DNA from: Cephalotus follicularis
Lineage: Eukaryota > Streptophyta > Magnoliopsida > Oxalidales > Cephalotaceae
Assembly (NCBI GenBank): GCA_001972305.1
Contig: BDDD01002687.1
Span: 1 to 64,000 of the forward strand
Length of the DNA stretch: 64,000 nucleotides
Reading direction: 5' to 3'
Each line of letters opens with the position of its first letter. Within the stretch, counting starts at the first letter, position 1. Positions 6,972 through 61,218 of this stretch are shown here, piece after piece. A model generated the notes under the pieces. The model was not told the origin of the DNA and did not search any database. It was given only the letters and a program-made list of their open reading frames with translations. A program made the translations under genes and the position numbers.

Positions 6972-6972
<1 letters not shown>

Positions 6973-11890: not shown

Positions 11891-12446
11891 CAGACATGAA
11901 CAAAAATATGATTTTCTTAACTATGAATCCTAAAACAGCAGTATGCAATAAAACATGATTCTCTCTATATGTAGACACCAGTAAAACTATTTAACATATC
12001 TACATATGGAATAATAGGTTGAACATTTCAATAAAGCTCTTCAAACATGGTTTTAACATAACATGATCAAAACAGTTTATAGATGATAAAAGAGTTTTGA
12101 AACAATCTATAAACCTGATATAGGATTAAACAGTGGTAAAACCATAGAAATCAAAACTCAGAATTATTTCATACCTCAAGATGTTGCAAATTAGATGAAG
12201 AAGACAATGAAAATGGCGCATGAAAATGGTGTTTTCTGGTTTTTTGTAAAACAATGCAGGTAATGTAGTTTTTAAAAAGAGAAAACCGTGTGTTTCAAAA
12301 TGGCAAAACGGAGGGGATTAAAGACCTTCCTTTTATACAGAAAACACGTCTAATCAAAAAGGAAAAATGGATAATAAGTTTTGTGGAAAAATCTACTTTC
12401 CAAAACCAAGCCACCGTCCAAAAGAGATAAGGAAGAAACATTTTAA

Positions 12447-12605
12447 GCGTCGACGGTCATGCAAAGCGTCAACGTTTAACCCCTTTTCACATAAAAGCAT
12501 TAACGTCATGCAAAGGCGTCGATGTTTATCAGTACATGGAAGAAACAAGAAATTTACAACACGAAGGTTTCAACGGTTTTGGCAAGGGCGTCGAAGCTTG
12601 ACGCC
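12447..12605. repeat. GTCGAC palindrome array in LTR A (outer block)
   Basis: AGCGTCGACGG, GCGTCAACG and GGCGTCGATG copies near the sense start of the LTR, a second block separate from 11562-11890. Confidence 0.7.
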
Positions 12606-13378
12606 CAGAATAAAACAAAACAGAGTTTTCAAAATCAATTTTCAAACGGTCCGAATAACACATAACTTATAACATATGATAAAAACATAACGTTTAACAA
12701 CAAACAAGAAAGAACTGAATCAGGGTACTACAAGGATATACGAAAGTGTCACCAACTCTTGGCCCCAACGTTGTACACCATACTTTAGCTCCGACTCCGG
12801 TCGGCTTGAAGCAGGTCAACAGGTTACTAGCATGGCGGCTAAGTAATCAACAAGTTAGTGGCACAACGGCTCAGTAATCAAAGTGGGTATCTCTAGCCAA
12901 CTCCTGGCACCTAGAGTCTAACCCTACCTCTAACCAGCCATGGCAACCTCTGCCACACAACTAGTACAGCAACAGTCACAATCACAGTCCAATTCAAGCA
13001 ATCTTACAAAATAATTACTTGATCAAATATATTTGTCAAATATATATCAGTCCATTTTTCAAGTCGTTTAAAAGTTATAAACACTTGAAACAATACATTT
13101 TCATTGTATAGAAAATCCCTTGAACGGTTCACAATCTTTGGAAATCATTTTCCCAGTCATTTGAAAATATACATTTGTCGAATATACATTTTCGTAAAAA
13201 ATAATGATTTATTCAAAATCATGCATATATTTATAAAATGATAAAACACTTTTAGAAATTAGTCACATTTCAATCCACGGTTCAATCAACAGTTCTGTAT
13301 GCAACGCAAACATATGATCAAATGCATCTAGGCTCAATCCGGGGTCAACGCACGTCTTCTAAGCAAAATTGTCCAAAA

Positions 13379-13745
13379 TAGTAGCTTAAACGTCAATGTT
13401 TAACTTCTAGGCATTGACGCTTATGTCCTCTAAGCATCGACGCTTCCATTCTTAGCGTCAGCGCTTACTCCAGAACCTTACGCGTCAATACATGTCTTGG
13501 GCTTCGATGCCTCAAGGTCAGGCTCCTTGAGCGTCGGCGCTTATCACTTTGGGGTCGACGCTTTGAGGTAGGACCTCAGGCATAAACTTCCATGTCTCCA
13601 CCTTGACGCATGTATCCAAGCAGGGCGTTGATGCTTTCTCTAAGCATAGACGTTTATCATTAAACCAGTACGTGTTCTTTGCATAACAGGTCTAAGCGTT
13701 GATGCTCCCATTGTAAGCATCGATGTTTACGCAGTTCAGAAACAT
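13379..13745. repeat. GTCGAC palindrome array in B left LTR, decayed
   Basis: Aligns with 36180-36535 in B's right LTR. Where the right LTR keeps GCGTCGACG, this copy often shows GCATTGACG or ACGTCAATG: mostly CG-to-TG/CA changes. Confidence 0.8.
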
Positions 13746-14147
13746 CATCTTCCATGTTTAACACAATACCAGGGGAAATCAATCAAGGGAACATGCATTC
13801 GAATTCAATATTCACTCAATATTCAACATGCATGGTAGGTTATCATTTAACAGTAACCATGGCATCACATCAGCAGTTCAGAGTCCAGGAAATCCATGCA
13901 TTTCATCAATGATAAAACACTATTCTTGAACTCAAATTTGCATGCACAAATCCCTTACCTTTGATTCCAAGTTAAGAACCGAAAGTCTGTAACGCCCGGA
14001 ATTTCCATTTAATGGATTACTGGAAATTCCTTTGTAACTAAACGATGAATTAATGAGAATTATGGATTTCAACTCATGGAGTTGGATTTGGAATGGAAAG
14101 TGTTAAGCAATATGGTGTTGGATAGGAAATTCAAAAACAAGGGCATT

Positions 14148-14375
14148 GAGCATCGATGCCAAGAGATGGCGTCAATGCCAAAGAATGCACACTGTGGTTA
14201 AGGCTTCATGCTTTAAAGCGTCGATGCCATGAAGTGACGTCGATGCCAAGTGCTGACGTCGACGCCCACCAATCGAGAAATCAAGGGGTTAGGCGTTAAC
14301 GCAGTTCGCGGAACCTGTTAGCGCCAAGGAAGAGAGTCAACGCGTCGACGCACATCGTGAACATTGACGCCTAAA
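14148..14375. repeat. GTCGAC palindrome array (13989 LTR, outer block)
   Basis: GCGTCGATGCC, ACGTCGACGCC and decayed forms near the sense start of the LTR, before the GA-rich leader. Confidence 0.75.
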
Positions 14376-14783
14376 ATTGTCGGTAGAATAACACAAAGCA
14401 CTAACAAAAGACGCGTGGAGGACAGGTGTGTGACACTTTATCTCTTCCCCATGCTCTACAATGGCAGAAGGAAGAGAAATTGACTGATGGGTGTCACATT
14501 GGTAGAGAGAAGAAGAGAGAGAGAAAGAGAGAGGCTTGAGGCGCCAGGAAAGCGGGCGAGAGGAAAGAGAGAAACTCCTCCATAAAACACTCTCTTTCTC
14601 CTTGTTCGACTAGGACCTGATAGATAGAAAGACAAAGAGAAAACAAGCGAGAAATGTAAAAGAAAGGAACCATATTTCCTCCATTGTTGAACTGGTGTGG
14701 AAGTGGGAAGCTCGGACTTGGAGCTACTGTGTCGGACCTGGGAGCGCAAAGCTACTGTTCGGTAAAGCTTAAAGAGGTGGACT

Positions 14784-14815
14784 TCGATTCCTAACTTGGA
14801 ATCAGAGGTAGAGAC
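14784..14815 (+). promoter_or_regulatory. Donor-like site of the 13989 LTR
   Basis: TTCCTAACTTGGAATCAGAG followed by GTAGAG. The same words precede GTAAGG in the B LTR. It follows a GA-rich, leader-like stretch. Confidence 0.45.
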
Positions 14816-15025
14816 TATATACTTGTATTTTGAGTTCAAAAATAGTGGATGTTCATTTGGTGAAATGTGTGAGTATTGGATTGTGACTGTGCATGTTGAG
14901 GTAGGCCATAATTGGTGTGTATGGTATGACCTGGAGTGAAAATGGATTGAACTGCATGTGTTGTATGCATGATTCCTGCTGGATTGATGCATTGGGGCAT
15001 TGTGGTATTGTTCTAGTTCAACAGA

Positions 15026-15490
15026 TGTCGATGACTAGAGGGAAGACGTGAACACATTGGCCTGTTATATAGGGAAGAAGACGCTTGAAGCATCGACGCC
15101 ATGAGGAGACGTTGATGCCTAGAGATAATGAACTGACGCTTAAGGTTCCTACCTTATAGCTTCGATGCCAAAAGGAGATAGACGCTGACGCCTAAGGTTC
15201 CTACCTTAGAGCATCGATGCAAACGACTGAAGCACTGACGCGTGAGGGTTTATTGTACACGTTAACGCATAGCTTACGCATTGAAGCCCAGAAGGACTGC
15301 TATGCATGTTGATGCATAGATTACACATGAACGCCTAGAGAGGCATGTGTTGACGCAATGGGGATTGATATACGTGTTGACGCATAAGTTACAAGTTAAC
15401 GCCTAAGGATACTGAGATACACGTTAACGCCTAAAATACACGTTGATACATAAGGAACGCATTGACGCATAAGTTACACGTTGACGCCAA
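15026..15490. repeat. Palindrome array (13989 LTR, inner block)
   Basis: Many GCATCGACGCC, ACGTTGACGC and CGTTAACGCC forms downstream of the donor-like site, mostly decayed at CpG positions. Confidence 0.75.
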
Positions 15491-16324
15491 AAGGACTGTT
15501 TTGCATTCTGAGCATATAATTGTTGCATTTCAATGGTTTGATTCTTATAATCATTCATGATTGTACTGTTTGACTGAATTGCCTTACTGAAAGTTATTAC
15601 TATTATTGCTAGTTTATATCTATCAATGTATTTTATACAAATACTACTGTTGAAGGATTTTAAGGAACTGAGTACTATGGGTACTTTTCAAGGTTTTCCA
15701 TTGTTCTGTATTTTACTGTTTTCCTCCTATGAGAGGTACTGCCACCGTTACTGTTTACAGTTTTCTCCAAGTGAGAATTTCTGTACTGTACTGTTTTCCT
15801 CAAATGAGAGGCATTGTTACTGAACTGTTACTGTTTTCTCAAACGAGATCTTACTGAATTGTTTTACCGTTTTCCAAAAGAAAACTACTGTTTGAAGAAT
15901 GTATTATTTTCAAGTATTTTATAACTTATAATCTACTTGGAAAGGATGGATTGAATTGATTGATTGGTTACTAATCACAGAGTGTAATGTAACCGGGTGC
16001 AAAACATAGAGTGTACGCATCCCTTGACTGAATTAATGGATGGACTGTGATGGGAATTTTGCATTAGTTACTAAACACAGAGTGGAAGTAACTAGGAATT
16101 TCACATGAGTGAGCTGCTAAACACTGAGTGGAAGCAGCTAGGGTTTCCTGTACAATGGTTACTAAACGCAGAGCAGAAGTAATCAGGCTACTAAACACTG
16201 AGTGGAAGTAGCTAGGGACTCCCACAGTTGGCTGTTACTAAACGCAGAGTGGAAGTAACCGGGTTGCTAAACACATAGTGGAAGTGACCGGGTGCTAAAC
16301 ATAGAGTAGAAGCATCCCTGTATA

Positions 16325-16494
16325 GAGTGTTGTCTTATGTAACATGATTGATTGATTGGAGTGTTGTCCTATGTGACATGATTGATTGACTGGAGTGTTG
16401 TCCTATGTGACATGATTGATTGACTGTAGTGTTGTCCTATGTGACATGACTGATTGACTGGAGTGTTGTCATATGTGACATGATTGACTGATAG
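16325..16494. repeat. 34-bp tandem repeat, 5 copies
   Basis: Unit GAGTGTTGTCCTATGTGACA followed by TGATTGATTGACTG, five head-to-tail copies with few differences. Confidence 0.92.
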
Positions 16495-16577
16495 ATTGCT
16501 TATCCTTGAGACATGATGGATGGATTGATGGTTGTAGCCACTTGGCATGGTTGCTTACCTATTGACTGATACATAGA

Positions 16578-16579
16578 TA

Positions 16580-16620
<41 letters not shown>
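16578..16620. repeat. (TA)n microsatellite
   Basis: About 40 bases of alternating TA shortly before the acceptor-like block of the 13989 LTR. Confidence 0.95.
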
Positions 16621-16699
16621 CGATATATTATGTGTTGCATCACGCATGCATTCATCACATGACATTTATTATAGTTGGCCCCTACTGCATTTATCTTTT

Positions 16700-16745
16700 C
16701 TCTACTTAGCCAGTGGACAAAGGCTAACCCCTACAATTTCAGATT
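16700..16745 (+). promoter_or_regulatory. Acceptor-like block of the 13989 LTR
   Basis: CTACTTAGCCAGTGGACAAA, GGCTAAC and CCCTACAATTTCAG before ATTGACAGAGG. It matches the blocks in G, B and the 8032 solo LTR. Confidence 0.5.
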
Positions 16746-18102
16746 GACAGAGGCAATCAAATAAGGATTGTCAAAGCTATACTTGAAGGCTTCTTTGTTA
16801 GGTTAGAGGTGTCCCTGTATGCCATAAATTTGGCTCGTTTGTATATACACACTCTTGATTTATACAATTCTGAATTCCTTTTATATTGCATGTGCATATT
16901 TCTTTAATGGCAAGGCTATGTGGCTCATCCCAACCAACAAAAAGGAACAGACTAATTATACGTAATTAACTGTATGCCACAATAGCATCCTGTTACATCC
17001 AAAGGGTCGGATCTCTTGCCGAAAGGGCTATGAGAATGAGATCCTTATTCCCTGTGACAAATGTTCCAAGTCATAGGTTCACTTTCTTAAGGGCCATTGA
17101 TGAACCGTGAAGAGTTGTCACGTTAAGCTTGCTCCCGGGTTAGCAGTGGAGATTGGTTATCTCGAAGCCAATTGGGTTTACCCCTAAAGCTAAATTTGAG
17201 ATGTATGCTAGAGTGCGTGACAATGAACAGACCCACCAATAGGAAACCTATTTGGATAGTCAATACCCAATGTCAATAGGATTCCTAAGGTCTCGGTAGT
17301 GTATAGTCTATGGTGACTCGTAGGTCTATAGTCTGCGTTGTCTCATTTGACCTGAGCGGCTGGCATGCATTGTGTGGTAACTACTTGAATTTGATTTTCG
17401 CCTTCCCCAACAGTAACTAGGTGCTGGCAAAAGGGTTGTCTTTGGGTCTTGTGGAAGCTGCATTGAGATGTATGGGTGAGTGCGCAATACGAGATCGTCA
17501 CACTCGGGCTGAGGGTGACCGGCTCTATTTGTCTATGTACGTTGCAAACTTAAATGTCCTGATCAGGCATAGGTGGACTGGGAACGAGAGGTTCCCATGG
17601 GAGGTCTACCGATAGTCTCAGTGCGATCATATATTCATAGCTATCACAACTACACTAGGGGTGACATTCATCCAAACCCTAGGCTTTGATCGGAGCCATG
17701 TATGATGAGGGAAACATGACACATATGCCGATGACTGGATAAAGCGAATGACTATTCGTTCCATGATTGATAGAAGTGGTAATACACGGATCCAGGGGAT
17801 GACTGGCGCTCACACAGGGGGTGCTCTGATAGTCGGTGTAATATTAGAGTGCTCGTACCAGATGATGGGGTGCACTAGGATTTTATCATCATACCGGAGA
17901 ACGACATGCTTTCAGGCCCTGCCTGACTTTGAACAAGTTGATATGTGGCGGGACACATATCATTTGGTGAAAGGACAACATCAGGGAAGATGTTTCTTAG
18001 CCAGTGAGTATTCGTTTGATGGATGTAGGTCCATGCAATGCCACAATGAAATATTCCATGCAAAGGCTTTTGAGAATGAGAAGAGATTGTTCTTTGTCTT
18101 GG

Positions 18103-18452
18103 GTGTCGACGCCATGAGTGTGCATCGATGCCAATGTCTAGTTGGGCTACTAGGCGTTAACGCAAAGGGATTGCGTTGACACTGGAAAAACCAGTAGCTT
18201 TACACGTCGACGCCAAGAGGGCACACGTCGACGTGCAAACTAGAAAATCTACTGGGCTTTAACGTTGTGGAGAGCATTGCGTTGACGATTTAAAAACCAG
18301 TAGGTATGCACGTTGACGCCATGTGGTTTAGGCGTTGACACGAAGACAAATGACACTGTTTGCCTATCTCATATTATCTATGGCGTTGACGCCTTTTTTA
18401 TAATGTGAGACGCATGATGTCAATGCCAGGCGTCGACGCCTAAACAAGCTGA
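18103..18452. repeat. GTCGAC palindrome array in block X
   Basis: GTGTCGACGCC, ACGTCGACGCC, GCGTTAACGC and GGCGTCGACGCC copies just upstream of the TATA candidate at 18486, a promoter-proximal position. Confidence 0.75.
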
Positions 18453-18485
18453 TGTGCGCTACAGTAGGAGAGAGAAAGTCAACAC

Positions 18486-18493
18486 TATATAAA
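18486..18493 (+). promoter_or_regulatory. TATA-box candidate of block X
   Basis: CTATATAAAGC, followed after about 40 bases by a CT-rich stretch (18525-18560), as at plant LTR promoters. The palindrome array ends only about 35 bases upstream. Confidence 0.5.
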
Positions 18494-20085
18494 GCTTGAG
18501 AGAAGCTTACTAGACACACTTGAGACTTTCTTCCTCTCTCTCTTCCCTGCGCTTCTCTTCTTCTACCGGCTCACATACACGTCGACTCCTATCGCCTATA
18601 CGTTGACTCCTACGTCACCTGGTGCGATAAAGCAGCCATTTTCAAGCCTCCTTTCACCATTCAAAGGTCATAATAGGTGGAGATACTTTGTACACTGTAT
18701 CTTATCTACACCTAGAGTGATTTAGACTAGGTTAAACACTTAGCCTTGCATTCTCCCTTCCGTGGCTTGTGGAGAGCTTAGAGCTCTTGAAGCATTTGGG
18801 GATAAAAAGTAGAGGGAGCTATCTTGAAGGAAGCAGACTTCACCTCTGGTAAGAATCATTTTCTTCCTCTCCTTGTGGCGCCATGGTAGTGGGTATTGAT
18901 ATGGGTGTGTGAACCCTTGCCAAACCTCTGTGGTTCTCTTGCTTTGTTTTGTTTGTCATCCATTAGGGTTAGGGATGATATGGGTGACATTTGATTGGGC
19001 TATGGCTAGGGTTTTGTGTGTTCTTCCTTGTGAGCCATTGTTAGTGTCCATTTCTAGGGTTTATGGAAACACTAGCTTTATCGACCCTTATGCCCGATGC
19101 TTGGTTTTTGGTTTCGGTTCAATTGGATATTGATTAGAGTTCCTTGGTATTTATTGGGACGATTTGGACATAGATTAGGGCATCCCATTGCTTGGGGATT
19201 AATCTATTTGTGAAAAATTAAAGTTAATCGGCCCTAACCCCTATAGTCCGAGTTGATAAGTCTTCTGCTGCGCTCGGTCCGAGCATTCCCAACATTCTCT
19301 ATTTAAGGTTGTTATGAAAATGTTAAATTGTATTGTAATAATCATGCTCCATTGTGTTTTATTTACATTCCCGATATGTAAAATATAACGTGTATAGTAA
19401 TGAGTTAAGCATGTAGTATGGGCTGCATGCGAATGATTTTGAATAATCCAGTACATCGAACACTTCCTCAAGAGTTTCAAATTTTGTTGGATTATTGTTA
19501 AATGCTGGATTATTAATTGATAACCACATATGTTGTCATTTGTTAATGGAAAACTGGGTGTGACAAAGTCCACCTCTTTAAGCTTTCTGTCCAGTAATTT
19601 GCGTTCCTAGGTTCGGCCACAGTAGTTCCAATCCAAGCCACTCCAAGCTCCAGGCTTGGTCCAACAATGGAGGTTTAGTCTCTCTCTATCTCCTTCTTTT
19701 CCCTCTGGTTTTTACAGTGTGTTTCCTCTCAGTCTTCTCTATTTTTTTTTCGTTCTCTTTTCCTCTCTTTTCTCCGGGTAGTGTGTGAAGGAGCAGAAGA
19801 AGAGAGGCAAGTTTTATGGGTTGTGTGTGTTTCCTCTTTCCTTCTCTTCACATGTCGCTCATGCATGGCGTCCACCTCTCCCCTCACTTGCGCATGCACA
19901 CAGGTGTCACACCCTTCCTCACAGTCTAGTCTTTGCAGGCTCAGGAATCAGGGTGCAGGTTCGTGACATTGTAGCATGTCCAACACGTCGCCATAATCAT
20001 GTGAAGGTGCCTAAAAAGTGGCCTTTACCTGCCCCCTTGCACGTTGTTTCTGTTAGTGTTCTAACGTGACTGAGATTCCCTTTTA

Positions 20086-20216
20086 AGCGTCGACGCTTAC
20101 CTATAGCGTCAGCGCTTATACTGTTTCCACTCAATGGTGTTGACGCTATTGCTTGGCGTAGACGCTTTGCGTGCATGTCTTTTACGCGCGCAAAAGCATC
20201 CCTTGGCGTCGACGCT
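20086..20216. repeat. GTCGAC palindrome array (B left LTR, outer block)
   Basis: AAGCGTCGACGCTT, GCGTCAGCGC and GCGTCGACGCTTAAG copies near the sense start of B's 3' LTR, matching 37291-37443 in the other LTR. Confidence 0.75.
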
Positions 20217-20366
20217 TAAGCCAGTTCGTTGAATTTTACATCAATACAATACCCTTAACATTTCTTACTCAAAATTCAACACAACAAATTGGAAATTCCA
20301 TCATTTTATTAATTCATATTTCAATTACAATGGGAAATACAATGGGTAGAAATCCCGGGCATTACA

Positions 20367-20380
20367 ATCCTCCCTCCTTC
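20367..20380 (-). other. Element B polypurine tract
   Basis: Sense reading GAAGGAGGGAGGATT lies directly against the LTR start TGTAATGCCCGGG. It follows GGGGATGAATTTC, the usual plant chromovirus lead-in. It marks the plus-strand priming site and fixes B's orientation. Confidence 0.9.
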
Positions 20381-34854: not shown

Positions 34855-35286
34855 CTGCTGTCACACCTTGTTTCTATAACAACACTTAGGTCGTGGCAAT
34901 CAACATACATATTCAGCATATGCAATTTTACGGCAATTTATAAACTTTTCAAACAGTCGTCATTCTGTGGAAGCAATCAAAATATAAGCTGAAATCATAA
35001 ATGTAACATGCATCCCATACTACATGTTACTAAAATACAACATTGCATTGTTAATTGCCCTCAATGGAGCATGATCAAAACATTATTCGTTCGATACATA
35101 AAACTTCATCAGTACAAAAATCCATCATAATACAGTAACACAAATCCATCAAGTACGATAAACATTGTTCTAAGGTTTACAATAACAGTTTAATAAACTC
35201 CAACAAGAAAATACAAATCCATCAGATAACATTATTAGAACTTCATTCTTCTCCAGGCTTGTCTATATCAGTCCCACTGCATCAAT

Positions 35287-35329
35287 CTAAAATTGTATGG
35301 GGTTAGCCTTTGTCCTTACTCGGCTAAGT
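35287..35329 (-). promoter_or_regulatory. Acceptor-like block of B 5' LTR
   Basis: Sense reading GGCTAACCCC, then ATACAATTTTAG before ATTGATGC, 430 bases from the LTR end; partner of 5937-5978. Confidence 0.45.
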
Positions 35330-35417
35330 AGAGAAGATATATGTACAATTCGGGGTCAATAATAATGAATGTCATGAATGGATGCACAGTGATGCAATAC
35401 AGTATATATAACAGGGT

Positions 35418-35441
35418 ATATATATATATATATATATATGT
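35418..35441. repeat. (TA)n microsatellite in B LTR
   Basis: TA run matching the shorter run at 6068-6083 in the other LTR. Confidence 0.9.
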
Positions 35442-36179
35442 ACATTCACAGTACAGGTGCAACCCTATCAAGGCTACATCAATACAATCCAGCAATCATG
35501 TCCTCAAAGGACCAGTCAATTCAAACAGGATATACGAAAGCGTCGCCAACTCCTGGTCCCAACGTCGTACACCATACTTCAGCCCCGGCTCCGGTCGGCT
35601 CGAAGCAGGTCAACAAGTTACTAGCATGGCGGCTAAGTAATCAACAGGTTACTACCATAATGGTTCAGTAATCTAAGTGGGTATCTCTAGCCATATCCTG
35701 GCACCTAGAGTCTAACCCTGCCACTAGCCAGCCATGGCAACCTATGCCACGCAGTTAGTATAACAACAGTCACAATCACAGTCCAAGTCAAGCTATTTTA
35801 TAAAATAATTACTTGATCAAATATATTTGTCAAATATATATTAGTCTATTTTTCAAGTCGTTTAAAAGTTATAAACACTTGAAACAATACATTTTCATTG
35901 TATAGAAAATCCCTTGAACGGTTCACAATCTTTGGAAATCATTTTCCCAGTCATTCAAAAATATACATATGTCGAATATACATTTTCGTACAAAATAATG
36001 ATTTATTCAAAATCATCTATGTATTTCTAAAATGATAAAACACTTTTAAAAATCAGTCACATTTCAATCCACGGTTCAATCAATAGTTCCGTATGCAATG
36101 CAAACATATGCTCAAATGCATCTAGGCTCAATCAGGGGTCAACGCACGTCATCTAAGCAAAATTGTCCAAAACAATAGC

Positions 36180-36535
36180 TTAAGCGTCGACGTTTAACTT
36201 CTAGGCGTCGACGCTTATGTCCTCTAAACGTCGCTGCTTCCATTCTTAGCGTCAGCGGTTACTCCAGAACCTTACGCGTCAATACATGTCTTGGGCGTCG
36301 ATGCCTCAAGGTCAGGCTCCTTGAGCATCGGCGCTTATCACTTTGGCGTGTCCGCTTTGAGGTAGGACCTCAGGCGTCAACGTCCATGTCTCCACCTTTA
36401 CGCATGTATCCAAGCAGGGCGTCAACGCTATCTCTAAGCATCGACGTTTATCGTCAAACCAGTACATGTTCTTCGCATAACAGGTCTAAGCGTCGACGCT
36501 CCCATCGTAAGCGTCGACGTTTACGCAGTCCAGAA
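36180..36535. repeat. GTCGAC palindrome array (B 5' LTR, inner block)
   Basis: Successive copies GCGTCGACG, GCGTCGACG, ACGTCGCTG, GCGTCAGCG are spaced about 21, 23 and 21 bp. Further copies run to 36530, including AAGCGTCGACGCTC. Better preserved than the partner at 13379-13745. Confidence 0.85.
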
Positions 36536-36734
36536 ACATAATCTTCCACTATTAACGCAATACCAGGGGAAATCAATCAAGGGAATATGCATTCCAATTC
36601 AATATTCAACATGCACGGTAGGTTATAATTTAACAATAACCATGGCATCACATCAGTAGTTCACTGTCCAGGAAATCAATGCATTTCATCAATGATAAAA
36701 CACTATTCTTGAACTCAAATTTTCATGTATAAAT

Positions 36735-36755
36735 CCCTTACCTTTGATTCCAAGT
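36735..36755 (-). promoter_or_regulatory. Donor-like site of B 5' LTR
   Basis: Sense reading CCTAACTTGGAATCAAAG followed by GTAAGGG, a good plant 5' splice-site match. The left LTR keeps it at about 13952-13970. Confidence 0.5.
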
Positions 36756-37290
36756 TAGGAACCAAAAGTCCACCTCTTTAAGCTTTATGTCCAGTAATTT
36801 GAGTTCCCAAGTTCAGCTGCATTTGCTCCAATCCAAGTTCACTCCAAGCTCCAAGCTTGGTCCAACAATTGAGGTTTAGTCTCTCTCTATCTCCTTCTTT
36901 TCCCTCTGGTTTTTACAGTGTTTTTCCTCTCAGTCTTCTCTATTTTTCTTTCCGTTCTCTTTTCCTCTCTCTTCTTCTGGTAGCATGTGAAGGAGCAGAA
37001 GAAGAGAGGCACGTTTTTATGGGTTGTGTGTGTTTCCTCTTTCCTTCTCTTCATATGCCATTCATGCATGGCGTCCACTTCTCCCCTCACTTGCGCATGT
37101 CACACAAGTGTCACACCCTTCCTCACAGTCCAGTCTTTGCAGGCTCAGGTGTCAAGGTACAGGTTGTTGACATTATAGCATGTCCAACACGTTGCCATAT
37201 TCATGTGAAGGTGCCTAAAAAGTGGCCTTTACCTGCCCCGTTGCACGATGTTTCTGTCAGTGTTCTAACGTGACTGAGATTCACTATTAA

Positions 37291-37443
37291 CCGTCGACGC
37301 TTACCTATACCGTCAACACTTATACTGTTTCCACTCAATGGCGTCAACGCTATTGCTTGGTGTCGACCCTTTGCATGCATGTCTTTTACGCGCACAAAAG
37401 CATCCCTTGGCGTCGACGCTTTGATCCTAGGTGTCGACGCTTA
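37291..37443. repeat. GTCGAC palindrome array (B 5' LTR, outer block)
   Basis: CCGTCGACGCTTA, GGCGTCAACGC, GGCGTCGACGCTT and GTGTCGACGCTTA near the sense start of the LTR. Confidence 0.75.
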
Positions 37444-37591
37444 GGCCAGTTCCTTGCATTTAACATCAATACAATACCCTTAACATTTCTTACTCAAAAT
37501 TCAACACAACAAATTGGAAATTCCATCATTTTATTAATCCATATTTCGATTACACTGAGAAATACAATGGGTCAAAATTCCATGCATTACA

Positions 37592-40409: not shown

Positions 40410-42850
40410 TGTCACGCCCCGAACCCCAAGGAAGACCCCAAGGCTCGACACGTGGCAGGTCCGTCCATACGATCCATCACATACGTAGCATCATACTTCA
40501 AATACGCTACAAATTTAAAACTTTAATATAAAACATGCATGCGAAAGAAAAATCATTCAATAGATGAACCCAACCATAACCATAACATCAATGTATATAT
40601 ATATCTTAGACGTTGCCACAAGCCGGCAGGTCAATAGCTGACATACAATATGTCTCTTATACATCAAGCATTATTATACAAGATAGGTCACAAATCTGAG
40701 CCGCTGACCAAGATCTTCCTGGGAAGTCCGATTCCCCTCGATCTGTTTCACGTTGATGCATCACGTGTACCTGATCCATTATGAGAATGGGTCAGCAACT
40801 CATGGCTATGTAGGCAATACTATATGCAATGAAATGCAACAGTTATATAGATATATATGTGCATGACATGTGAAATGCATGATTGCCAATTGCGGACAGC
40901 GTCAGTATACCAACCGTCCCTAAGCGGAGGTATAGTTGGCTAGTCCTAATCACATCATAGGTCATAGGTCTGCAGACACTACATAAAACAATCCATAAGC
41001 ATCCATAGGGACAATCAATCCATAGGGTCAAGTTCTCATCTGCCTCTCCGGCCTGAGATAGTACCCCCACCATTTATACACCCTATGTGCCATAGTCGTG
41101 TGGAGGATAGGATAACACCGATCACATAGTCCATACCATACCATAATACTAGTCCCGAAAGGTACTAGCCCATACCAGTCTCGAAGGTACTAGCCCATAA
41201 TAATGATCTGTGTTATCTATGCCATAACCAAGCCATATCCATACCATACCATATCACTCCATAATGCGGTGATGCCGGTAGATCACCCAAAAAGGGAGGA
41301 TTACCATATCCATTTAATATGTGACCTACACCCATAATGCTTCATGACGGAAATGAAGATTATGAATGGGTTATCCTGTTAGGTCTCAACCATAACAAAC
41401 CATCAATCATAGCCGTACCATGCCCGTAGCCCATAACCATATTTCCATTTAAAGGATAGGAACCTAAACATAAATGAACACATAGTATCCATCCGTCAAA
41501 GCCATTTTCAAACCCTTTTCCATAACTATTTTCTTGCTCCCTATCGGAGTTGTAAAACAATGGAGAGGAAGTCCAACTAGGATATCTGCGTCTAGATGTC
41601 CCAATTGAGCTATCCTAACCATTTTTGAAAACTATTTGTATAAAACCCCTTTTGTTGAAACTTTCTTCAAAGATTTACTTGAAAGTTTATTTGAAGATTA
41701 AAGGCGTTAAAAGAGAATTCACATAGGCTACAAGGCTTTAGGGCGGTATGGAATCCATTTGAAGATAAAAGCATTTGGGGGCAAAAACAATGTAGTTTGG
41801 CTGAAACAGGGCCCTAGGCGTTGACGCTTTCATGCTAGGTGACGACGGTTAGCGTCTAAGCGTCGACGCTTTTGTGCTAGGCATCTTCGGTTAAGGCGTT
41901 GTGCCTTAAGCATCGACGCATGCACTAAGCGTCAACCGTTTGCAACACATAAGGCGTCAACGCTTTAACCGGAAGCGTCGACGGTTTGTCCATTTTCCCT
42001 TCAAGCGTTAACATTTTCCATTGTCACATCAACATGTTGTGCTAATTAGCGCACAAAACGTAAGGGATCACATAATGCGTTGATGCTCAAACTGCGCGTC
42101 GACGTGCTGGGCACTGAAGAACACATCGACGTGCAAGATGAACACGTCGACGCACTGGGTTTTCTCAACACTGTAAAAATTAATTAAAACTCATTTAAAC
42201 TATTTAAAATTCAATTAGAAGGAAGCTATAAGCCTCAAACATCAATTAAAACTCAAAAACAGCTTTTAAAACATTTAAATCCATTCTCATATCCCTTAAA
42301 TCGAAAGAAAACGGAAATTAGGTAAAATAGTCCCAACTCTCTAATTTCTCTCAAATCACAATCTCAATACGTTATTTACCGTACTCGGTACCCTAAATCA
42401 TCCATCTAACATGTATCCATCAATCCATAACCATACCATCATGCAAATCCATCGAAAATGGAGAATAAGTTGCTTGAATCCTTGTTCTGCTTCTCCCTTT
42501 AGGTTCTACGCTCTACCACGACCCCAATGACTCTTTCCTTGCTCTTTTTCGCCCACTTTCTCTCTCTAACTCACCATCTCTCTCTCTCTCTAAAAGTGGA
42601 AAGAGAAATGCAATTGAGAATGAAAGAGTTAACTCGCATGCATACAGATAAAGGCTCCCTTTAGGCGAAAATCTTAAAAGTTACGCTTAGCTTCAATTGA
42701 ACCCCCATTACTCATAAACAGTCATAAAAGTTGAAAATAGTATATATCATACACAATCTATGTCATCCATACATACAATATCTTACAATACTGTATAAGT
42801 ACAAAAAAAAATACAGACAATTTCGTACATAAAAAAATCATGGGCTTACA
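40410..42850 (-). mobile_element. Element D 3' LTR
   Basis: 2,441 bases from TGTCACGCCCCGAACC to GGGCTTACA. It matches the 5' LTR at 62024-64000 throughout the visible part. It carries one GTCGAC array (41816-42160). The family also occurs at 2486-3145 and, more distantly, at 3383-5527 plus 37592-38534. Confidence 0.93.
41816..42160. repeat. GTCGAC palindrome array in D 3' LTR
   Basis: GCGTTGACG, GTGACGACG and GCGTCGACG copies follow at 21-bp steps, with further copies (CACGTCGACGCAC) to 42160. Spacers are unrelated. Confidence 0.85.
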
Positions 42851-52130: not shown

Positions 52131-53430
52131 ATAAGTGTCACACCCCGCCTTTCAATTCCATTAGAGACAAGCATATATGGTGATATCAGAAATAAATATA
52201 ATCCAGCATTCTCATTGAGCAATTCAATAATATAAGCGGAAGCATTCATATCTAGATTATAAAATAAAAGTCATCCGCACGCAGCCCATACTACGTGCAT
52301 GTACAATCCGACAATAATCCTTTTACATAATGAAAGTAAAACAACAACACGGAGTGTGAACCGTTCATTATAAAAATAGTACATCATAAAATAACAACCT
52401 TAAGAAGAATAGAAACTCTCCAAGCTTCAGCAGCACTCTCTGAACGTCCTTGCTTAATATGAAATTGTAGGGGTTAGCCGTTGTCCTCACTTGGCTAAGT
52501 AGGAAAATAATGCATGATAAGGAATATATAAAAGCAACATATATGACATTTTATATTGAAAATAACATAATTAAGTATTCCAATATATAAGCAACCATGC
52601 CAAGTGGCCATAGACAATACAATGCAAGAATACCGCACAAGGGTACAATCAATTAGTACAGTGGTTTGGGTGTCACATGTCGCTAACTCCTAGCACCAAC
52701 TGTGCACCGCCTATCTATCACCCCTCACTCTAGAGATGATAGATCATGTCAATTACTACCGGCATTAGCGGGCAGTTTAACAAAAAAGATCTGCATTGCA
52801 GACAGTTTGGGTGGATACTCTAGCCAACTCCTGGCACATAGGACCACCTCCGTATCCAGTGATTTCTCCTATCACTCGACTAACGGCAATAGCATAGACA
52901 AACAATTCAATCAATTCAGTAGTAATATTACATAAGTTTTAAAATGTAATATAGGGTTGTTTTCTTTTGAAACATATAACAATTCAGTAATTGTACATCT
53001 CCTAGGAGGAAAACGATATTCAGTACAGTAACAATACCTCTCGTTGGAGGGAAAACAGTAATCATTTGACAATATACGTTTCCATTTTGAAAACCGTAAG
53101 GAACTCATATTTGTGCTTCAAGCACTAGTTGATTCAATCATTTGAAAATAAGGGACAGTAGTGTTAATGGACACCCTAAACAGTATATACTAATTATAAC
53201 AGTAGCATATACAGTAAACAGTAAAGCACAGTAGCAATCCAAGGGTTCAATAAGTCATTGTATGCCCTAGTCATTCTTATAAAATTCTCACAAGGAGTAT
53301 ATACATTGTTTAAATTCTGAAATGTAATTATTTAAGGCCAGGATTGACTATTACAGTCATCCTATATGGAGGCCAGGTTAATTACATTAAATTTAAGGCC
53401 TAATCAGAACCTGTATCATAATTTTAACCC

Positions 53431-53525
53431 AGAGTAGTCGGCTGTTTGGTTGAGTAGTCGACTGTTTGTTCTTAACAGTCGACTGGTTTGTTTGAGTAGT
53501 CGACTGTCATGAAGAACAGTCAACT
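53431..53525. repeat. CAGTCGACTG palindrome array (F, inner block)
   Basis: Five copies of AGTCGACTG or near forms at steps of 20, 21, 21 and 20 bp with unrelated spacers. The clearest case of regular spacing in the window. Confidence 0.9.
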
Positions 53526-54414
53526 GCTTTGCCCAGAATGAGCAGGCAGTAACAGGGTATACATTACAATGTCCAATACAAATCCAATCAACGCATACAA
53601 TCAAGCAGAAAATAACCATACATGATATGCATAATTATATCTTCAAAAACATGTCATTACCCCTACCTTAAACGCTATCCCGAAATCAATTTGGATTGAT
53701 TTCTCTCTTTAAAGTCCAAAGTTCTTTCACCAATCTTAACCTTCCAATCTCAGCAGAATTGATCTATACAATGCATGCTCAAAGGTTCAGTCATTAAATC
53801 AGCAAGTTTAACTAATTATCCAGTTGCAATTGCTATTCTAACAGTAGTTCATCAATAATTCATTAAGCCTCAAAATTACCCTTTACAACCTCTCTTTGAA
53901 CCCTTTGCCAATTCTATTTCAATTCAACTTATTAACTCTTAATCAAGTTGGAAGAAGATATATCTAGCATCCTCCTAGTTACATTATCACATTAGCAGTG
54001 AGTTCGGATTGGGGACTTACCAGGAAGATTCAAGTTCAACACTCTCTTGAAGCTCTAACTTCCAACATGCAAGCTTTAAGAATTCTCCAGCAAGACCTCC
54101 TCTATCCTCAGTGTTTTCTAACATTCACACTCTATTCTAACAGCTGATATAGAACTTAGAAAACTTAGGAATCATCAGACTCCATTACTCAGCCTTCTCT
54201 CTTTTCCTTCTCTCTCTCACATGCACCTCTCCTCACTTTTTCTCTTCTGTTTTTGCAGGTTGCAGGTCTGCAAATCTTGCAGAAGGAATAGGGGACATGC
54301 AAGGCACTCCTCTTGCATGTTATGGAAGATGGTGACACGCATCCCTCATGCATGCCACGATTCACACACTTTTCATCACTATCTCTGCGCATGCCAGACG
54401 CCTGCTCTGTGTCA

Positions 54415-54495
54415 CTCCAGTCGACTGTCGTCCTGTGGCAGTCGACTGTCTCTTCCACGAATCAACCAGTCGACTGTTACCCCGTGACAGTCGGC
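54415..54495. repeat. CAGTCGACTG palindrome array (F, outer block)
   Basis: Perfect 10-base palindromes at 54418, 54439 and 54467 (steps 21 and 28), with a further AGTCGGCTG. Confidence 0.88.
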
Positions 54496-54674
54496 TGTTT
54501 GAGCTGGTTTTAGGGTTTCTTAAGTTTGTTTTACCAATTTGCATCTCAAATCAACCCAAGCATTCATAAATCACAGTCATAATGATAATTGGACAAATAA
54601 TCTCAATTAAAATGAATATTTTATTTAAAATTGGAGCAATATACATTAATTGAAATTGCGGTTATTATAATAAG

Positions 54675-55638: not shown

Positions 55639-56452
55639 TGTAATAACTGCAACTTCAATTAATGTATATTGATCCAATTTTGAAATAAAATATACATTTT
55701 AATTGAGTTATTTATCCAATTATACTGATTTCTATGATTGGTAATTGTTTGGGGATGATTAAATGTGCAATTGGTGATGCATCAAAGACTAGGAAACCCT
55801 AATCTAGCCCAAACAGCCGACTGTCATAGGGCAACAGTCGACTGTTTGCCACGTGAAGAAGGCAGTCGACTACCCACTTATTCCAGTCGACTGGTTTGCT
55901 CCAGGACAGATTCCTGGCATGTGCAGGGACAAGAAGGACAGATGGGATAATGGCACTTATGTCTCACCATCTGCCAGAACATGCAAAAGTGAATGTTTGC
56001 ATGTTCTCTGCAGACCACCAACCACCAAATTGATTAATTAAGAGAGAAAGTGGAAGTGAGGGAGGCATGTGGTGGAAAGAATGAAAGAAAAATGTGAGTG
56101 CATGTGAGTAGGTAGGAATATGACGAATTCAGGTTTTATATCAGATGATTGAATGGTGTTTGAGTGTTAGAAACACAGAGTGAAGTGAGAGTTACTAAGG
56201 ATTGTGGAAGGCTTGCATTGGAGATGTTAGAAAGCTCAAAAAGGAGGACTTTGAGGCTTTAGAATCTTGGTAAGTCCTTGATCCGAAATTCTTGTTATTA
56301 TGTTGATAAAATGTGACTAGGAATGTTAAATATTTTCTGTTAATGGATTAGAATCAACAATTCTTAAAATTGAAATGGAAAGTAGTAAATTGGAGCAAGT
56401 GGAATTGGTGATATAGCCTCTAGAATAGATTTTAATTGTTGTTAGTGTTAGA
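55639..56452 (+). mobile_element. Element G 5' LTR, up to the gap
   Basis: First 814 bases of the LTR. They include a palindrome array (55805-55900), a TTTTATATCAG promoter-like spot near 56135, and a donor-like CTTGGTAAGTCC at 56267-56278. Inverse relative of F. Confidence 0.85.
55805..55900. repeat. CAGTCGACTG array (G, outer block)
   Basis: Copies CAGCCGACTG, CAGTCGACTG, CAGTCGACTA and CAGTCGACTGG, steps about 20-30 bp. Confidence 0.85.
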
Positions 56453-56477
56453 NNNNNNNNNNNNNNNNNNNNNNNNN
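56453..56477. other. Assembly gap (25 N)
   Basis: Gap of unknown true size. The sequence before it stops at an LTR position that is found again at 59343, and gag sequence follows it. Confidence 1.
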
Positions 56478-58975
56478 CTCAATACCAGACTAGGTTCGTG
56501 GAGCTGGCGAGACACACGCCTTATCTTGTTGAGGGTGAGTCGCGGATGATTCGAAGGTTCTTGAAAGGCCTTCGACCAGATATCAGGTCCAAATTGTTAT
56601 TATTACAGCTGACCACTTTTGTTGATGTTGCTGAAAGAGCAATGATTCTGGAAGCGGATGCAAATGACAGAAGGATTGAGCGATCTTGTACTCAATCGAG
56701 ACCAGCACAGTCACAAGGACAGGGTAGCAACAAACCTGCTGGTTCTGCAAAGTCTGGAAATAAGAATCAAGGAGGTTTTCGACGCAACAATTTTCGATCA
56801 AGAACTCCTAACCGAAGTGGCCCACAAAACTCTGAAGGATGCACTTTTTGCGATCGTCCAAATCATGATGAATCAGAATGTTGGAAGAATATGGGAAAGT
56901 GTTTGAAGTGTGGCTCACAAGGTCACATACTGAAAGATTGCCCAATGTTGAAGGATCAAGTGCACGGCCAACAAGGGAATGCTGGTGCTAGTGGTAGTAT
57001 TGCGGCAGCTCAACCGCGAAGAGATACCGGGAAGGGGATCATGAAAGGTAGAGTCTATACCTTATCTAAAGATGATGTTCCAGAATCTACTACTGTTGTA
57101 GGAGGTACTATTCATATATCTGGCATATTAGCTCATGTATTGATTGACCCTGGTGCGACACATTCATTCATTGCATCTGAGTTTGCTCACAATTTGCATG
57201 GCATTACTTCTAGACTATCATATGTTTTGGAAGTGAGTACTCCTGCGGGTACTTGTCTTCTATCTGATACTGTTACGAAGGACTGTGAAATTGTGATAGC
57301 TGGGATGGAGCTATCCGTTGACTTGATAGTCCTACCTATCCGAGATTTTGATGTAATATTGGGGATGGATTGGCTGTATGCTTATCATGCTTGTGTTGAT
57401 TGCTACAACAAGATGATGACGTTTTATCTGCAAGACGGGACGGAATGCAAGTTTATCAGGGAGAAGAATGTTACTGCTCCGATTATCTCGTATACCCGAG
57501 CACAGAAGTATCTCAAGCAAGGATGTGAGGGATACTTGGCGTATGTGATTGATCATACAAAAGGTACGCCTAATATTGAACAAGTACCTATTGTATGTGA
57601 ATTTCCTAATGTGTTTCCAGATGAACTCACTTCGTTGCCACCGGAGAGAGATGTTGAGTTCAGCATTGAGCTATGGCCTGGAACTGCTCCTATATCCAGA
57701 GCACCATACCGAATGGCTCCGGCTGAGCTGAAGGAGTTGAAAGTTCAACTGCAAGATTACCTTGACAAAGGATTTATCAGACCGAGTGTATCACCGTGGG
57801 GAGCACCGGTTCTGTTTGTTAAAAAGAAGGATGGATCGATGCGGCTATGCATTGACTACAGACTGCTGAATCAAGTGACGGTAAAGAACAAGTATCCTCT
57901 ACCACATATTGAGGAGTTGTTTGACCAATTGCAAGGCTCAACTGTATACTCTAAACTTGACTTGAGAACAGGTTACCATCAATTGAGGATTAGAGAAGGC
58001 GATGTGGAGAAAACTGCATTTCGAACCAGATATGGGCACTATGAGTTCCTGATACTGCCGTTTGGTTTGACTAATGCTCCTGCAGCCTTTATGTGTCTAA
58101 TGAACAAAGTGTTCCGACCTTACCTGGACCAGTTTGTCGTCATATTCTTAGATGACATCATGATCTACTCAAAAAGCACTGAGGAACACATGCAGCCCAT
58201 GAGAATCGTACTGCAGACACTACGGAAGGAACAACTGTATGCCAAATTCAGCAAGTGTGAATTTTGGCTGGAACATGTGACTTTCTTAGGTCACATAGTG
58301 TCGAGTGAAGGATTGTCAGTGGACCCTTCAAAGATTGAAAGTGTTGTTGATTGGCCCCAACTGAAGAACGTGACGGAGGTTCGTAGTTTCTTGGGATTGG
58401 CTGGCTATTATCGGAGATTCATCGAGGGATTCTCGAAACTTGCGACACCACTGACACAGCTGACTCAGAAGAAGTCCAATTTTGTGTGGGATGATTCCTG
58501 TGAAGCGAGTTTCCAAGAGTTGAAGAGTCGGTTGATTACGGCTCCAGTGTTGGCATTACCAGATGGTAATGAGGGTTTTACTGTCTACACCGATGCCTCT
58601 GGGAAAGGATTAGGATGCGTTTTGATGCAACGTGATAGGGTGATTGCATACGCATCAAGGAAGTTAAAGCCGTACAAGGAAAATTATCCCGTACACGATC
58701 TTGAGTTGGCAGGCATAGTATTTGCCTTGCAGAAATGGAGGCACTATCTCTATGGTGCCCAGTTTGAAATCTTCACTGATCATAAGAGCTTGAAGTATTT
58801 GTTTTCCCAGAAGGAGCTCAACATGAGACAGTGGCGATGGGTGGAATTCTTCAATGACTACAACTACAATATTCAACACCACCCGGGAAAGGCGAATGTT
58901 GTGGCTGATGCGCTGAGTCGCAAAGCGATGATTGCTGGAGCTATGGTTTCACAGTGGAAATGGTGGAAAGAATGA
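56478..58975 (+). CDS. Element G gag-protease-reverse transcriptase-RNase H, open frame
   Basis: One open frame (start codon at 56498, open from the gap) of about 825 codons. Gag end ([20 protein letters not shown], residues about 4-24); two CCHC zinc knuckles ([28 protein letters not shown]; about 117-150); protease with [11 protein letters not shown] (about 210-225) and [10 protein letters not shown] (about 290); reverse transcriptase with [20 protein letters not shown] and [13 protein letters not shown] (about 490-555); RNase H with [14 protein letters not shown] (about 695) and [16 protein letters not shown] (about 795). The last 15 or so residues run into LTR sequence and do not belong to the protein. 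Integrase is not in this frame. It is the least decayed retroelement coding sequence here. Confidence 0.93.
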
Positions 58976-59809
58976 AAGAAAAATGTGAGTGCATGTGAGT
59001 AGGTAGGAATCTGACGAATTCAGGTTTTATATCTGATGATTGAATGGTGTTTAAGTGTTAGAAACACAGAGTGAAGTGAGAGTTACTAAGGATTGTGGAA
59101 AACTTGCATTGGAGATGTTAGAAAGCTCAAAAAGGAGGACTTTGAGGCTTTAGAATCTTGGTAAGTCCTTGATCCGAAATTCTTGTTATTATGTTGATAA
59201 AATGTGACTAGGAATGTTAAATATTTTCTGTTAATGGATTAGAATCAACAATTCTTAAAATTGAAATGGAAAGTAGTAAATTGGAGCAAGTGGAATTGGT
59301 GATATAGCCTCTAGAATAGATTTTAATTGTTGTTAGTGTTAGAACAAATGCTTAAATGGTTTCTAAGTATTTACATACCTTCTGTCAAATACTTAAATGA
59401 ATGAATTCGAGATTGATTAATTGTTGACATAGGGTTCAAAAGGAAATTGGAAAATGGAAGTTAAGACTTAGAGACTTGGTGATTTAAGTTATTGTTGGAA
59501 ATTGTAATTGTAGTAAGTAGCTAATGAAACCTACTGATATTGATGCATATGTTCATAAACAAACATACATAGATTGGTTCTGCTGGAAATTGAAAGAGTG
59601 ATTGGTGAAAGTGACTTGGAACTCAAAGAGAAAGATCATATTCAATTGATCTTGGGATAGCGATTTGAGGTAGGGGTAATGATATGTCATGGAAGATATG
59701 AGTATGCATATTATGTATGTTTATTTTCTGCATAATTACATGTATTGAATTGATTGGGAATTGAATTAGCATTACATGACTTGCTATTTCTGCATTTTCT
59801 GGGCAGAGA

Positions 59810-59880
59810 CAGTCGACTGGCACCCAAAGCAGTCGACTACTCAACCCAACAGTCGACTGGTTCTTCATGGCAGCCGACTG
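59810..59880. repeat. CAGTCGACTG array (G, inner block)
   Basis: CAGTCGACTG-type copies start at 59810, 59830, 59850 and 59871, steps of 20, 20 and 21 bp. Matches F's inner block. Confidence 0.92.
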
Positions 59881-60840
59881 TTCTGGGTAGAAAATTCATA
59901 CATTGATTGAATTGTTACTGTTTGTTATTATTATTGAATTGTATATGCTACCACCATCTACTATATACTATTTGATGTTATTTAACATCACTACTACTTG
60001 TATTACAATGATCGAAAGAATTATGTACTATATGCACAATGCATGGTTTTAAACATCATTTTCAAGTGAGAACTCTTATTGCAAGAATTATTGATTTATG
60101 AAAGTGTTACCGAATGTGCTACTGTCACATTATTATAAACTGATTTGGTGTCATTTATCACCACCACCACTTGTATTTCAATGATTGAAACCAACTATGG
60201 ACTATGTATCCAATTTATGAAATCAAACTATCATTTTCAAGTGAATGATTATTGCCAAATAAACTACTGATTTTTCCTCCTATATGAGAGGTACTTATTG
60301 TTTTGTTTCCCAAATTGGAAACCACTATTTAAGTGATGTCGTTTTCCTCCAAAGAGATGTACGATAAGTGAAGTGTTATAGTTTCTAAAGAAAACTACTT
60401 TCTATTGCATATTGATGATATATGTAATATTATTCTTGAATTGATTGTATTGATTGTGTATGAGTGCCGTGGTTTGGTGACGGAGGTTATCACTGACTAC
60501 GGGTATGTGATTCTGAGTGCCAGGAGTTGGCCAGAACATCACCTAAGTGTGTTTGCAGTGTTAAACTACCCGCCAACGCCGGTAGTAAGTGTTACCTAGT
60601 CTGTCATTCTCGGAGCGCAGGGTGATAGATAGGTGGTGCACAGTTAGTGCTAGGAGTTAGCGACTTGTGTCACCCAGTGAGTGTTGAATTGATTGTACCC
60701 TTGTGCGGTATTCTTGCATATGGATTGTCTATGGCCACTTGGCATGATTGCTTATATATTAGCCCATTCAAATGTTATTTTGATATAACTGTCATACATG
60801 TTGCATTCATATACTCCTTATCATACATTATCATTCTACT

Positions 60841-60880
60841 TAGCCAAGTGAGGACAACGGCTAACCCCTACAATTTCAGA
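60841..60880 (+). promoter_or_regulatory. Acceptor-like block of G
   Basis: TAGCCAAGTGAGGACAACGG, CTAAC at 60861 (plant branch-point form), then CCCTACAATTTCAG ending at 60879 before ATTAAGC, 335 bases from the LTR end. With the donor-like GGTAAGTCC upstream it could bound an intron of roughly 1.7 kb inside the LTR. Confidence 0.5.
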
Positions 60881-61218
60881 TTAAGCAAGGACAATTGGAG
60901 ACTGCTGCCGAATCCTGGAGAGCTTCTTATTGTTATTTAAGGTTGATTATTTATGATGTTGTACTGTAATTTTGAGATTGAACGGTTCATACCTCGTAGT
61001 GTTGTATTTTCCTTTTTGTAAGGATAATTGTGGTTTACCCGCACGTAGTATGGGATGCGTGCGGACGACTTATTTTATATTCCGGCTTATCGAATGCTTC
61101 CGCAATTTAATTATGGTTAATAATTGAAATGCTGGAATATTATTTTATGCTTATTTCTGATATCACCACATATGCTGGTCTATTGTACGTGAATGGAAAT
61201 ACGGGGTGTGACAATACT

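Follow-up and report, generated by a model that had tools for sequence, protein, structure and literature searches.

Arrays of GTCGAC palindromes at a 21-bp step in long LTRs of one Ty3/gypsy lineage

GTCGAC arrays in a nest of Ty3/gypsy LTRs

The second of two array zones in solo LTR U, at 53431..53530 on the minus strand, holds five sites built on the self-complementary core GTCGAC or its variants and set 20 to 21 bp apart (array F). This locus raises the question of what such arrays are: whether they exceed chance, how the LTRs that bear them are related, and what could keep a short core and its step. A first-pass annotation of the sequence had given F steps of 20, 21, 21 and 20 bp, and these are reproduced by GTCGGC at 53437, GTCGAC at 53457, 53478 and 53499, and GTCAAC at 53519, with arms CA/TA..TG on the plus strand. 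The steps of 20, 20 and 21 bp that it gave for a second array, G, are likewise borne out by sites at 59812, 59832 and 59852 and a GCCGAC/GTCGGC-type unit at 59873.

The palindrome arrays are real and non-random. Exact GTCGAC occurs 55 times in the window, by which we mean the whole 64,000-nt stretch analysed, against a mean of 5.87 and a maximum of 12 in shuffled sequence. Forty-eight of these cores lie within 27.6 kb that comprise one Ty3/gypsy LTR lineage and the pieces nested in its LTRs; the remaining 36.4 kb holds 7, where about 3.8 are expected. Counting the core together with six transition variants (GTTAAC not counted) yields 90 sites in the 9900 bp of eight LTR stretches, compared with 12.6 in dinucleotide shuffles; the A 3′, B 5′ and U′ LTRs were omitted from this set as copies. 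With variants included, LTRs A, D, U, B3, 13988 and ins1R have 9 to 16 dyad-symmetric sites each, and their exact cores number 8, 2, 6, 4, 2 and 7, respectively. Arrays are absent from LTR family C, whose 1910 bp contain no GTCGAC, and from the LTR-like repeats E, with one in 6786 bp, so the initial statement that most LTR families here share them was too wide.

Rfam has no match in the window at gathering score, and a reverse-transcriptase piece from the window found no relative among viral contigs. In the same viral contigs, the class-2 array pattern was found in one stretch and the class-1 pattern in at least 120, the latter probably chance matches in GC-rich viral sequence.

Nested Ty3/gypsy LTR retrotransposons, evidently of plant origin, make up the window. 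LTR U (52136..54669, minus strand; 2534 bp) has ATAAG at both sides, its ends being placed by eye and by alignment to U′, and its first array zone, at 54414..54501 on the minus strand, has sites at 54420, 54441 and 54469 and GTCGGC at 54490, with steps of 21, 28 and 21 bp. U′, a solo LTR of the same family in the opposite orientation (55639..61213, plus strand), has ATACT flanks, is interrupted by a nested insertion and bears arrays at 55816-55891 and 59812-59878, the latter being G. Within U′, 56070-56452 and 58961-59343 are 383-bp direct repeats, 98.7% identical, around an 848-residue gag-pol frame that starts next to a run of N; they are possibly short LTRs, or an assembly artefact at a gap. 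The B 3′ LTR (40411..42847, minus strand, ends by eye) has 9 sites at 41814-42157, and its partner aligns at 62037-64000 and extends beyond the window. LTR C1 (1..804, minus strand) is truncated by the window start and has five sites at 478-634.

The 5′ LTR of element A (34859..37591, minus strand) is 2733 bp long and has 16 sites, and the sequence beside it at 34844 reads as what we take to be a tRNA-Met-type primer site. Its 3′ counterpart (5528..20367, minus strand) is split by two nested insertions into pieces at 5528-6175, 12733-13987 and 19565-20367. One insertion is ins1, an LTR-like insertion at 6176-12732 with AGGAT flanks; its right part, ins1R (10868..12732, minus strand), has 14 sites, including runs with steps of 21 and 21 bp at 11564-11606 and of 20, 21 and 21 bp at 11707-11769. 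Solo LTR D (8032..10867, minus strand; 2836 bp) has GTATC flanks and 15 sites in two zones. The 13988 LTR (13988..19565, plus strand), with AAGTC flanks and 10 sites, contains a nested piece at about 16777-19233, its edges inferred, which has its own dense array at 18105-18602. The four LTRs measured without a nested insertion are about 2.4-2.8 kb long. Two other kinds of repeat lie nearby: seven 38-bp tandem repeats at 5042-5310, with the end of the A 3′ LTR about 220 bp to their right, and a pair of ~3.4-kb repeats (23455-26830 and 28968-32377). The two members of this pair are 86.5% identical and contain ~13 and ~16 copies of a 27-bp tandem repeat, which has several open frames.

The coding content agrees with gypsy-type elements. 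Minus-strand pieces encode gag, protease, reverse transcriptase, RNase H and integrase-related domains, and the plus strand has the single 848-residue frame. Between the A and B LTR pairs, Pfam identifies Retrotrans_gag/Ty3_capsid, RVP_2, RVT_1, RNase H and a Tf2-1-like SH3 domain in frames credited to these elements by position, and several of the frames there are homologous to the gypsy-type 848-residue frame. Matches to rve and H2C2 score under the curated cut-offs. Thirty of the 83 open frames of at least 90 residues in the window were scanned; nine matched, all to gag-pol domains, one of them also with a weak unrelated second match.

Kinship, step and conservation of the arrays

The first-pass annotation had proposed, beside a silencing or chromatin factor, a shared activator that LTRs which otherwise do not align had evolved to recruit. 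The main LTRs prove to be homologous, which argues against convergent recruitment and implies that the sharing of arrays is largely common descent. F and G belong to inverted copies of one LTR family, U and U′, with 68-69% identity, and nhmmer searches with LTR A match D (E 1.9e-113), 13988 (E 1.4e-50), B (E 4e-11), U (E 8.3e-17) and U′ (E 2e-16); C1 matches D (E 4.6e-33). The absence of alignment does hold for the array regions of A and U, since the A-U match spans A 1725-2351 only, downstream of the arrays. Lineage membership is less sure for ins1R and C5, whose matches are weaker (1.1e-5 and 3.6e-7) and span the array regions themselves. A 17-base box, GGACAA[A/C]GGCTAACCCC, has five exact occurrences, one each in LTRs A, D, U, U′ and 13988 (starts 35315(-), 8439(-), 52486(-), 16715(+) and 60852(+)); the copy in LTR A, at 35299..35315 on the minus strand, lies downstream of the arrays. 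Family C and repeats E lack the box, and none occurs in the viral or genome contigs searched. Some of the five LTRs that carry it are only ~60% alike outside it.

The step between neighbouring sites is well above chance. We reduced the 55 exact cores to a non-redundant set of 42 by dropping 13 in duplicate LTR copies and in 23455-32377. Among the 16 adjacent steps of at most 60 bp in this set, 11 are 19-22 bp (all of them 20-21 bp, and 10 exactly 21 bp), whereas 5000 jittered sets averaged 1.23 such steps and never exceeded 6. The 90-site set gives the same picture: of its 69 steps of at most 75 bp, 35 measure 19-22 bp, a class that averages 4.8 (maximum 13) in jittered sets and 0.07 in shuffles; the other steps are 25-37, 42-54 and 62-74 bp, plus one of 8. 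The array spacing first noted thus exceeds shuffled and jittered controls. Its description as helically phased stands for close neighbours, through the single 19-22 bp step, and fails for longer pairs and for the gaps between runs: periodicity among pairs 23-130 bp apart is weak (P 0.0175 at 10.0 bp, 0.076 at 10.4 and 0.169 at 10.5), and 10 of 13 gaps between runs fall at phase 0.62-0.81 of 10.4 bp, away from 0. Helical periodicity past the single 21-bp step was rejected on these grounds.

Tandem Repeats Finder calls F a 21-bp repeat. We rejected an ordinary tandem repeat because the spacers do not align like the core: over 11 flank positions, array neighbours share 4.14, units from different families 3.98 and random pairs 2.84. 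The earlier statement that the spacers are unrelated is upheld by the first two figures and qualified by the repeat-finder call and by a mild likeness of neighbours in their six-base arms (z 1.9-2.2 with sites re-dealt). The arrays are not homogenised tandem repeats, although an ancient duplication is likely.

Arrays occupy two zones in A, D, U and ins1. Counted from the LTR 5′ end, the first zone spans 154-421 in A, 187-325 in D, 175-245 in U and 210-279 in ins1R, and the second spans 1074-1449, 1195-1508, 1146-1228 and 852-1164, respectively. In the 13988 LTR, sites lie at 233-357, with others scattered over 1040-1493; C1 retains a first zone at 177-316 before the window start ends it, and B has sites at 697-1023 only. 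Four zone-2 cores of A align to ATCGAC in D (59.6% identity), so that these zone-2 positions are common to A and D by descent.

Only the U family shows conservation of the exact core, and on few positions. When U and U′ are compared in both directions, 10 of 12 GTCGAC cores survive (5 of 7 distinct positions), against 124 of 397 other CpG 6-mers (31%) and 922 of 5141 6-mers overall (18%). The A LTR pair keeps the core in 4 of 11 comparisons in both directions (other CpG 6-mers, 260/728 or 36%) and the B LTR pair in 2 of 6 (156/605 or 26%), core loss as expected of drift after insertion. The exact core is kept in 0 of 6 comparisons between A and D, 0 of 4 between A and 13988 and 0 of 3 between D and C1; ten of these 13 counterparts are one or two transitions off.

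Direction and arm symmetry of the sites

The arms around the core are most commonly GC..GC, GC..GT and CA..TG, and they distinguish LTR U. There, A..T adjoins the core in all 9 sites, in both zones, compared with 0 of 81 sites elsewhere, and the zones sharing this changed flank lie 900 bp apart. The array-end units in U and U′ are GCCGAC/GTCGGC (53437, 54490, 55816 and 59873), for which CpG decay does not account. Of the 15 sites in LTR D, 13 read ATCGAC or GTCGAT, and GTTGAC and GTCAAC are both absent; it seems that a family-specific asymmetric core variant has spread across both D zones. This bias among core variants is unlike random CpG decay.

The sites also have a direction. Read in the sense of the LTR, 77 sites have a core preceded by C or followed by G; at ±2, 31 of these carry only the right C, 5 only the left G, 29 G..C and 12 neither. 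Among core variants, GTTGAC outnumbers GTCAAC by 19 to 5 in the same sense. The preferred direction leads by 3 to 0 in the plus-strand 13988 LTR and by 4 to 1 in C5, for which the orientation is assumed. Because the LTRs lie in both window orientations, site direction is not an assembly strand effect. Arm mismatches differ by zone (1.30 vs 2.32); this contrast is due to U, with A, D and ins1 mutually unseparated, and arm classes that differ by zone were rejected.

The two arms of a site covary. Across positions ±1 to ±6 of the 90 sites, left and right complement each other at 275 of 540 positions, and re-dealing the right arms within each LTR gives 244.4 (sd 8.2); none of 4000 permutations reached 275, and a second run of 5000 gave P 0.0002, P values that are exploratory because the test was picked after viewing the sites. 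Positions ±7 to ±12 show no excess (129 vs 135.4), and the excess occurs at register 0 only (z 3.66; remaining registers -1.7 to 1.4). Restricting the count to the 37 sites with exact GTCGAC cores leaves 118 complementary positions against 103.9 (P 0.0045). The within-LTR excess persists when permuted by zone (P 0.0014), when any one LTR is omitted (P ≤0.0075) and without near-identical arms (69 sites, P 0.0002).

A second method, applied to the 81 non-U sites, shuffled arms across LTRs and so includes between-family differences; kinship alone, with no structure, can also exceed shuffles of this type. By this count, paired cells make up 61.7% vs 56.2%, the covariation score is 0.269 vs 0.206 (slid registers, 0.083-0.170) and cells changed on both sides number 85 vs 61.9, each with 0 of 500 shuffles as high; pairs with a double change (6 vs 6.7) and further pair types (23 vs 21.5) are unremarkable. 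Among the LTRs, A (z 3.3) and C1 (2.4) show strong within-site covariation, D, B3 and 13988 (1.2-1.7) show it moderately, and U (-0.1), ins1R (0.3) and C5 (0.3, direction assumed) show none. In this exploratory analysis, arm symmetry spans 18 bp per site, goes beyond a family consensus and is not present in every LTR. It is the part of the result that a specialist would not expect.

A candidate regulatory module and its known counterparts

Our best explanation, which we regard as evenly poised between right and wrong, is that the arrays form a cis-regulatory module of one long Ty3/gypsy LTR lineage and are bound by a sequence-specific protein. Each site would be occupied by one such DNA-binding protein, and the two-turn step would set neighbouring molecules on one face of the helix, allowing cooperative binding that could raise transcription of the element or shield it from silencing. 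The core and step are kept and the spacers are not, and nine U sites share a different flank, which points to a sequence-specific factor; in lineage U the factor or its preference may have changed, and all nine sites with it. The dimeric protein on one helix face first suggested survives as a sequence-specific factor on a two-turn array, and a purely symmetric homodimer would not be the whole story, given the directional sites (31 vs 5 of 77) and covarying arms. Other observations count against the regulatory reading: covariation out to ±6 is not predicted by independent half-sites, the gaps between runs are out of helical phase, and conservation of the exact core is limited to U and U′ and to few positions. 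In addition, U3 takes up just 244 nt of the long Retrosat2 LTR (PMC3485330), so stretches of the arrays here may lie within the transcript. In favour of the regulatory reading is the precedent of palindrome arrays in LTR control regions (PMC2829016, PMC10760457). The module is probably a regulatory switch; other retrotransposons have switches of this type, but the setting is new and the symmetry unusual.

More tentatively, we suggest that the sites are self-symmetrising, their arms being kept complementary over 18 bp so that it is symmetry, and not a fixed sequence, that is preserved or generated. Reverse transcription or repair could copy one arm onto the other at the palindromic core, which would act as a built-in generator of new binding-site variants; alternatively, the arms may be required to pair in single strand. 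If true, an LTR lineage could shift the specificity of all its sites and yet stay palindromic.

Other readings account for parts of these data. In one that we consider unlikely, transcribed palindromes would pair into hairpins, either as a source for small-RNA silencing or with a role in the element RNA. Arrays do out-fold their shuffles (z -3.6 to -6.7 in 8 of 10; -1.8 and -2.0 in the remaining pair), and the two arms covary within sites. In maize, Sirevirus palindromes are small-RNA hotspots for which the same role has been proposed, and they are thought to be cis-regulatory (PMC5311732, PMC10760457). Yet with the 10-mers held fixed the spacers add nothing clear in 9 of 10 arrays (the exception being U zone 2, equalled by 5 of 300 shuffles), so the folding follows from the palindromes; neighbouring sites are complementary no more than by chance (P 0.31 and 0.10, 36 close pairs), and array-level hairpins as more than a by-product were rejected on this evidence. 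The 18-mers are themselves weak hairpins (mean -1.4 kcal/mol in sense, -2.1 kcal/mol in antisense); compared with re-dealt arms they gain nothing in sense, and the antisense z is -2.0. A stem would not need the 21-bp step. About as improbable is that the arrays are functionless remnants of an old directional unit of ~21 bp, duplicated in tandem, with drifted spacers and with palindromes renewed by fold-back template switching during reverse transcription or repair. The common site direction in LTRs of both window orientations, the slight likeness of neighbours (z ~2), the repeat-finder call on F and the 18-bp arm symmetry would all suit such an origin. However, flanks are about as alike across families as between neighbours while the core stays, drift destroys cores in the A and B LTR pairs and mostly not between U and U′, and identical changed arms recur in both U zones.

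Very unlikely, in our judgement, is an anti-silencing system in which a factor from one element of the lineage would recognise arrays in its relatives and strip their methylation, in the manner of VANC proteins. One group, U, has switched all nine of its sites, and several array bearers are solo LTRs, which would need a factor acting in trans. The 30 of 83 open frames scanned with Pfam yielded no candidate for an extra gene, in a window whose elements are few and broken. VANDAL elements, which VANC targets, are DNA transposons. The short VANC motifs gather, as the sites here do, in non-coding parts of a transposon lineage and change jointly there; they often stand in tandem (PMC5735166). Unlike the sites here, the VANC21 motif (YAGTATTAY) is asymmetric and non-palindromic and spreads by tandem repeats; the passages describing it give no fixed step, and the main text uses none of the words spacing, periodic and interval (PMC5735166).

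If the favoured reading of a protein-bound regulatory module is right, the factor may be made by the host. GCCGAC is the usual CRT/DRE core. The core here fits RYCGAC (CRT/DRE), and GCCGAC variants lie at array ends in U and U′. GTCGAC is tabulated as the barley CBF2 site CRTDREHVCBF2, citing Xue 2003, an identical six-base core but a single short element, on whose arms, step or arrays that entry is silent (PMC4553201). A CBF, suggested by this identity and by GCCGAC at the array ends, is one guess among many, and the monomeric binding of AP2 proteins counts against the reading.

The BII boxes of Tnt1 are stress-response elements in its LTR, and among plant LTR stress-response elements we know of no dense palindrome arrays. 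ONSEN, Tto1 and Tnt1 resemble the arrays here as LTR promoters with sites for host transcription factors. In Tto1, a 13-bp element is named as the LTR stress-response element (PMC3485330), and ONSEN LTRs, which have heat elements, are without CG sites, unlike the arrays, in which each exact core holds one CG (PMC3907296).

Among the matches listed from literature searches, no title or abstract opening names GTCGAC arrays in LTRs. The first-pass annotation knew of no described LTR feature of this form, but the LTRs of Sireviruses contain palindromic repeated motifs, such as CGGTCGACCG in Vitis and ACAATCGATTGT in Tnd-1 (PMC2829016, Table 3). These motifs number 8 to 32 per element in 13 motif-bearing elements; in the sections of that paper describing them they are reported in Sireviruses only, and the authors named no common binding factor (PMC2829016). 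The present arrays resemble these motifs: both are high-copy, dyad-symmetric LTR palindromes that contain CpG and have family-specific sequence round a common core, the LTRs here have palindromes in at least eight copies each when variants are counted, as do Sireviruses, and the Tnd-1 motif ACAATCGATTGT is one symmetric pair apart from ACAGTCGACTGT (PMC2829016). Ninety-two percent of Sirevirus copies lie in the upper half of the LTR, starting 200-400 bp in, and their clusters stand just upstream of a conserved TATA box (PMC2829016). TATA-like words are many in our LTRs, one being kept in U and U′ about 850 bp past zone 2.

The two systems also differ. The CGG-CCG signature of Sireviruses, to which Tnd-1 too is exceptional, is absent here, where the core is GTCGAC; the hosts there are Ty1/copia elements, whereas the LTRs here belong to Ty3/gypsy elements by their gag-pol domains; and the gypsy arrays are set in two zones at a 21-bp step, with sites that have a direction and arms that are symmetric within each site (PMC2829016). 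The gypsy arrays offer a clean test of how an LTR and the factor that reads it change together, and their arm symmetry asks how palindromes persist. Palindrome arrays in LTRs had been reported as a peculiarity of the copia-type Sireviruses (PMC2829016); their presence in gypsy LTRs, two helical turns apart and with arms changed throughout a lineage, would point to a general solution in plant LTR control regions.
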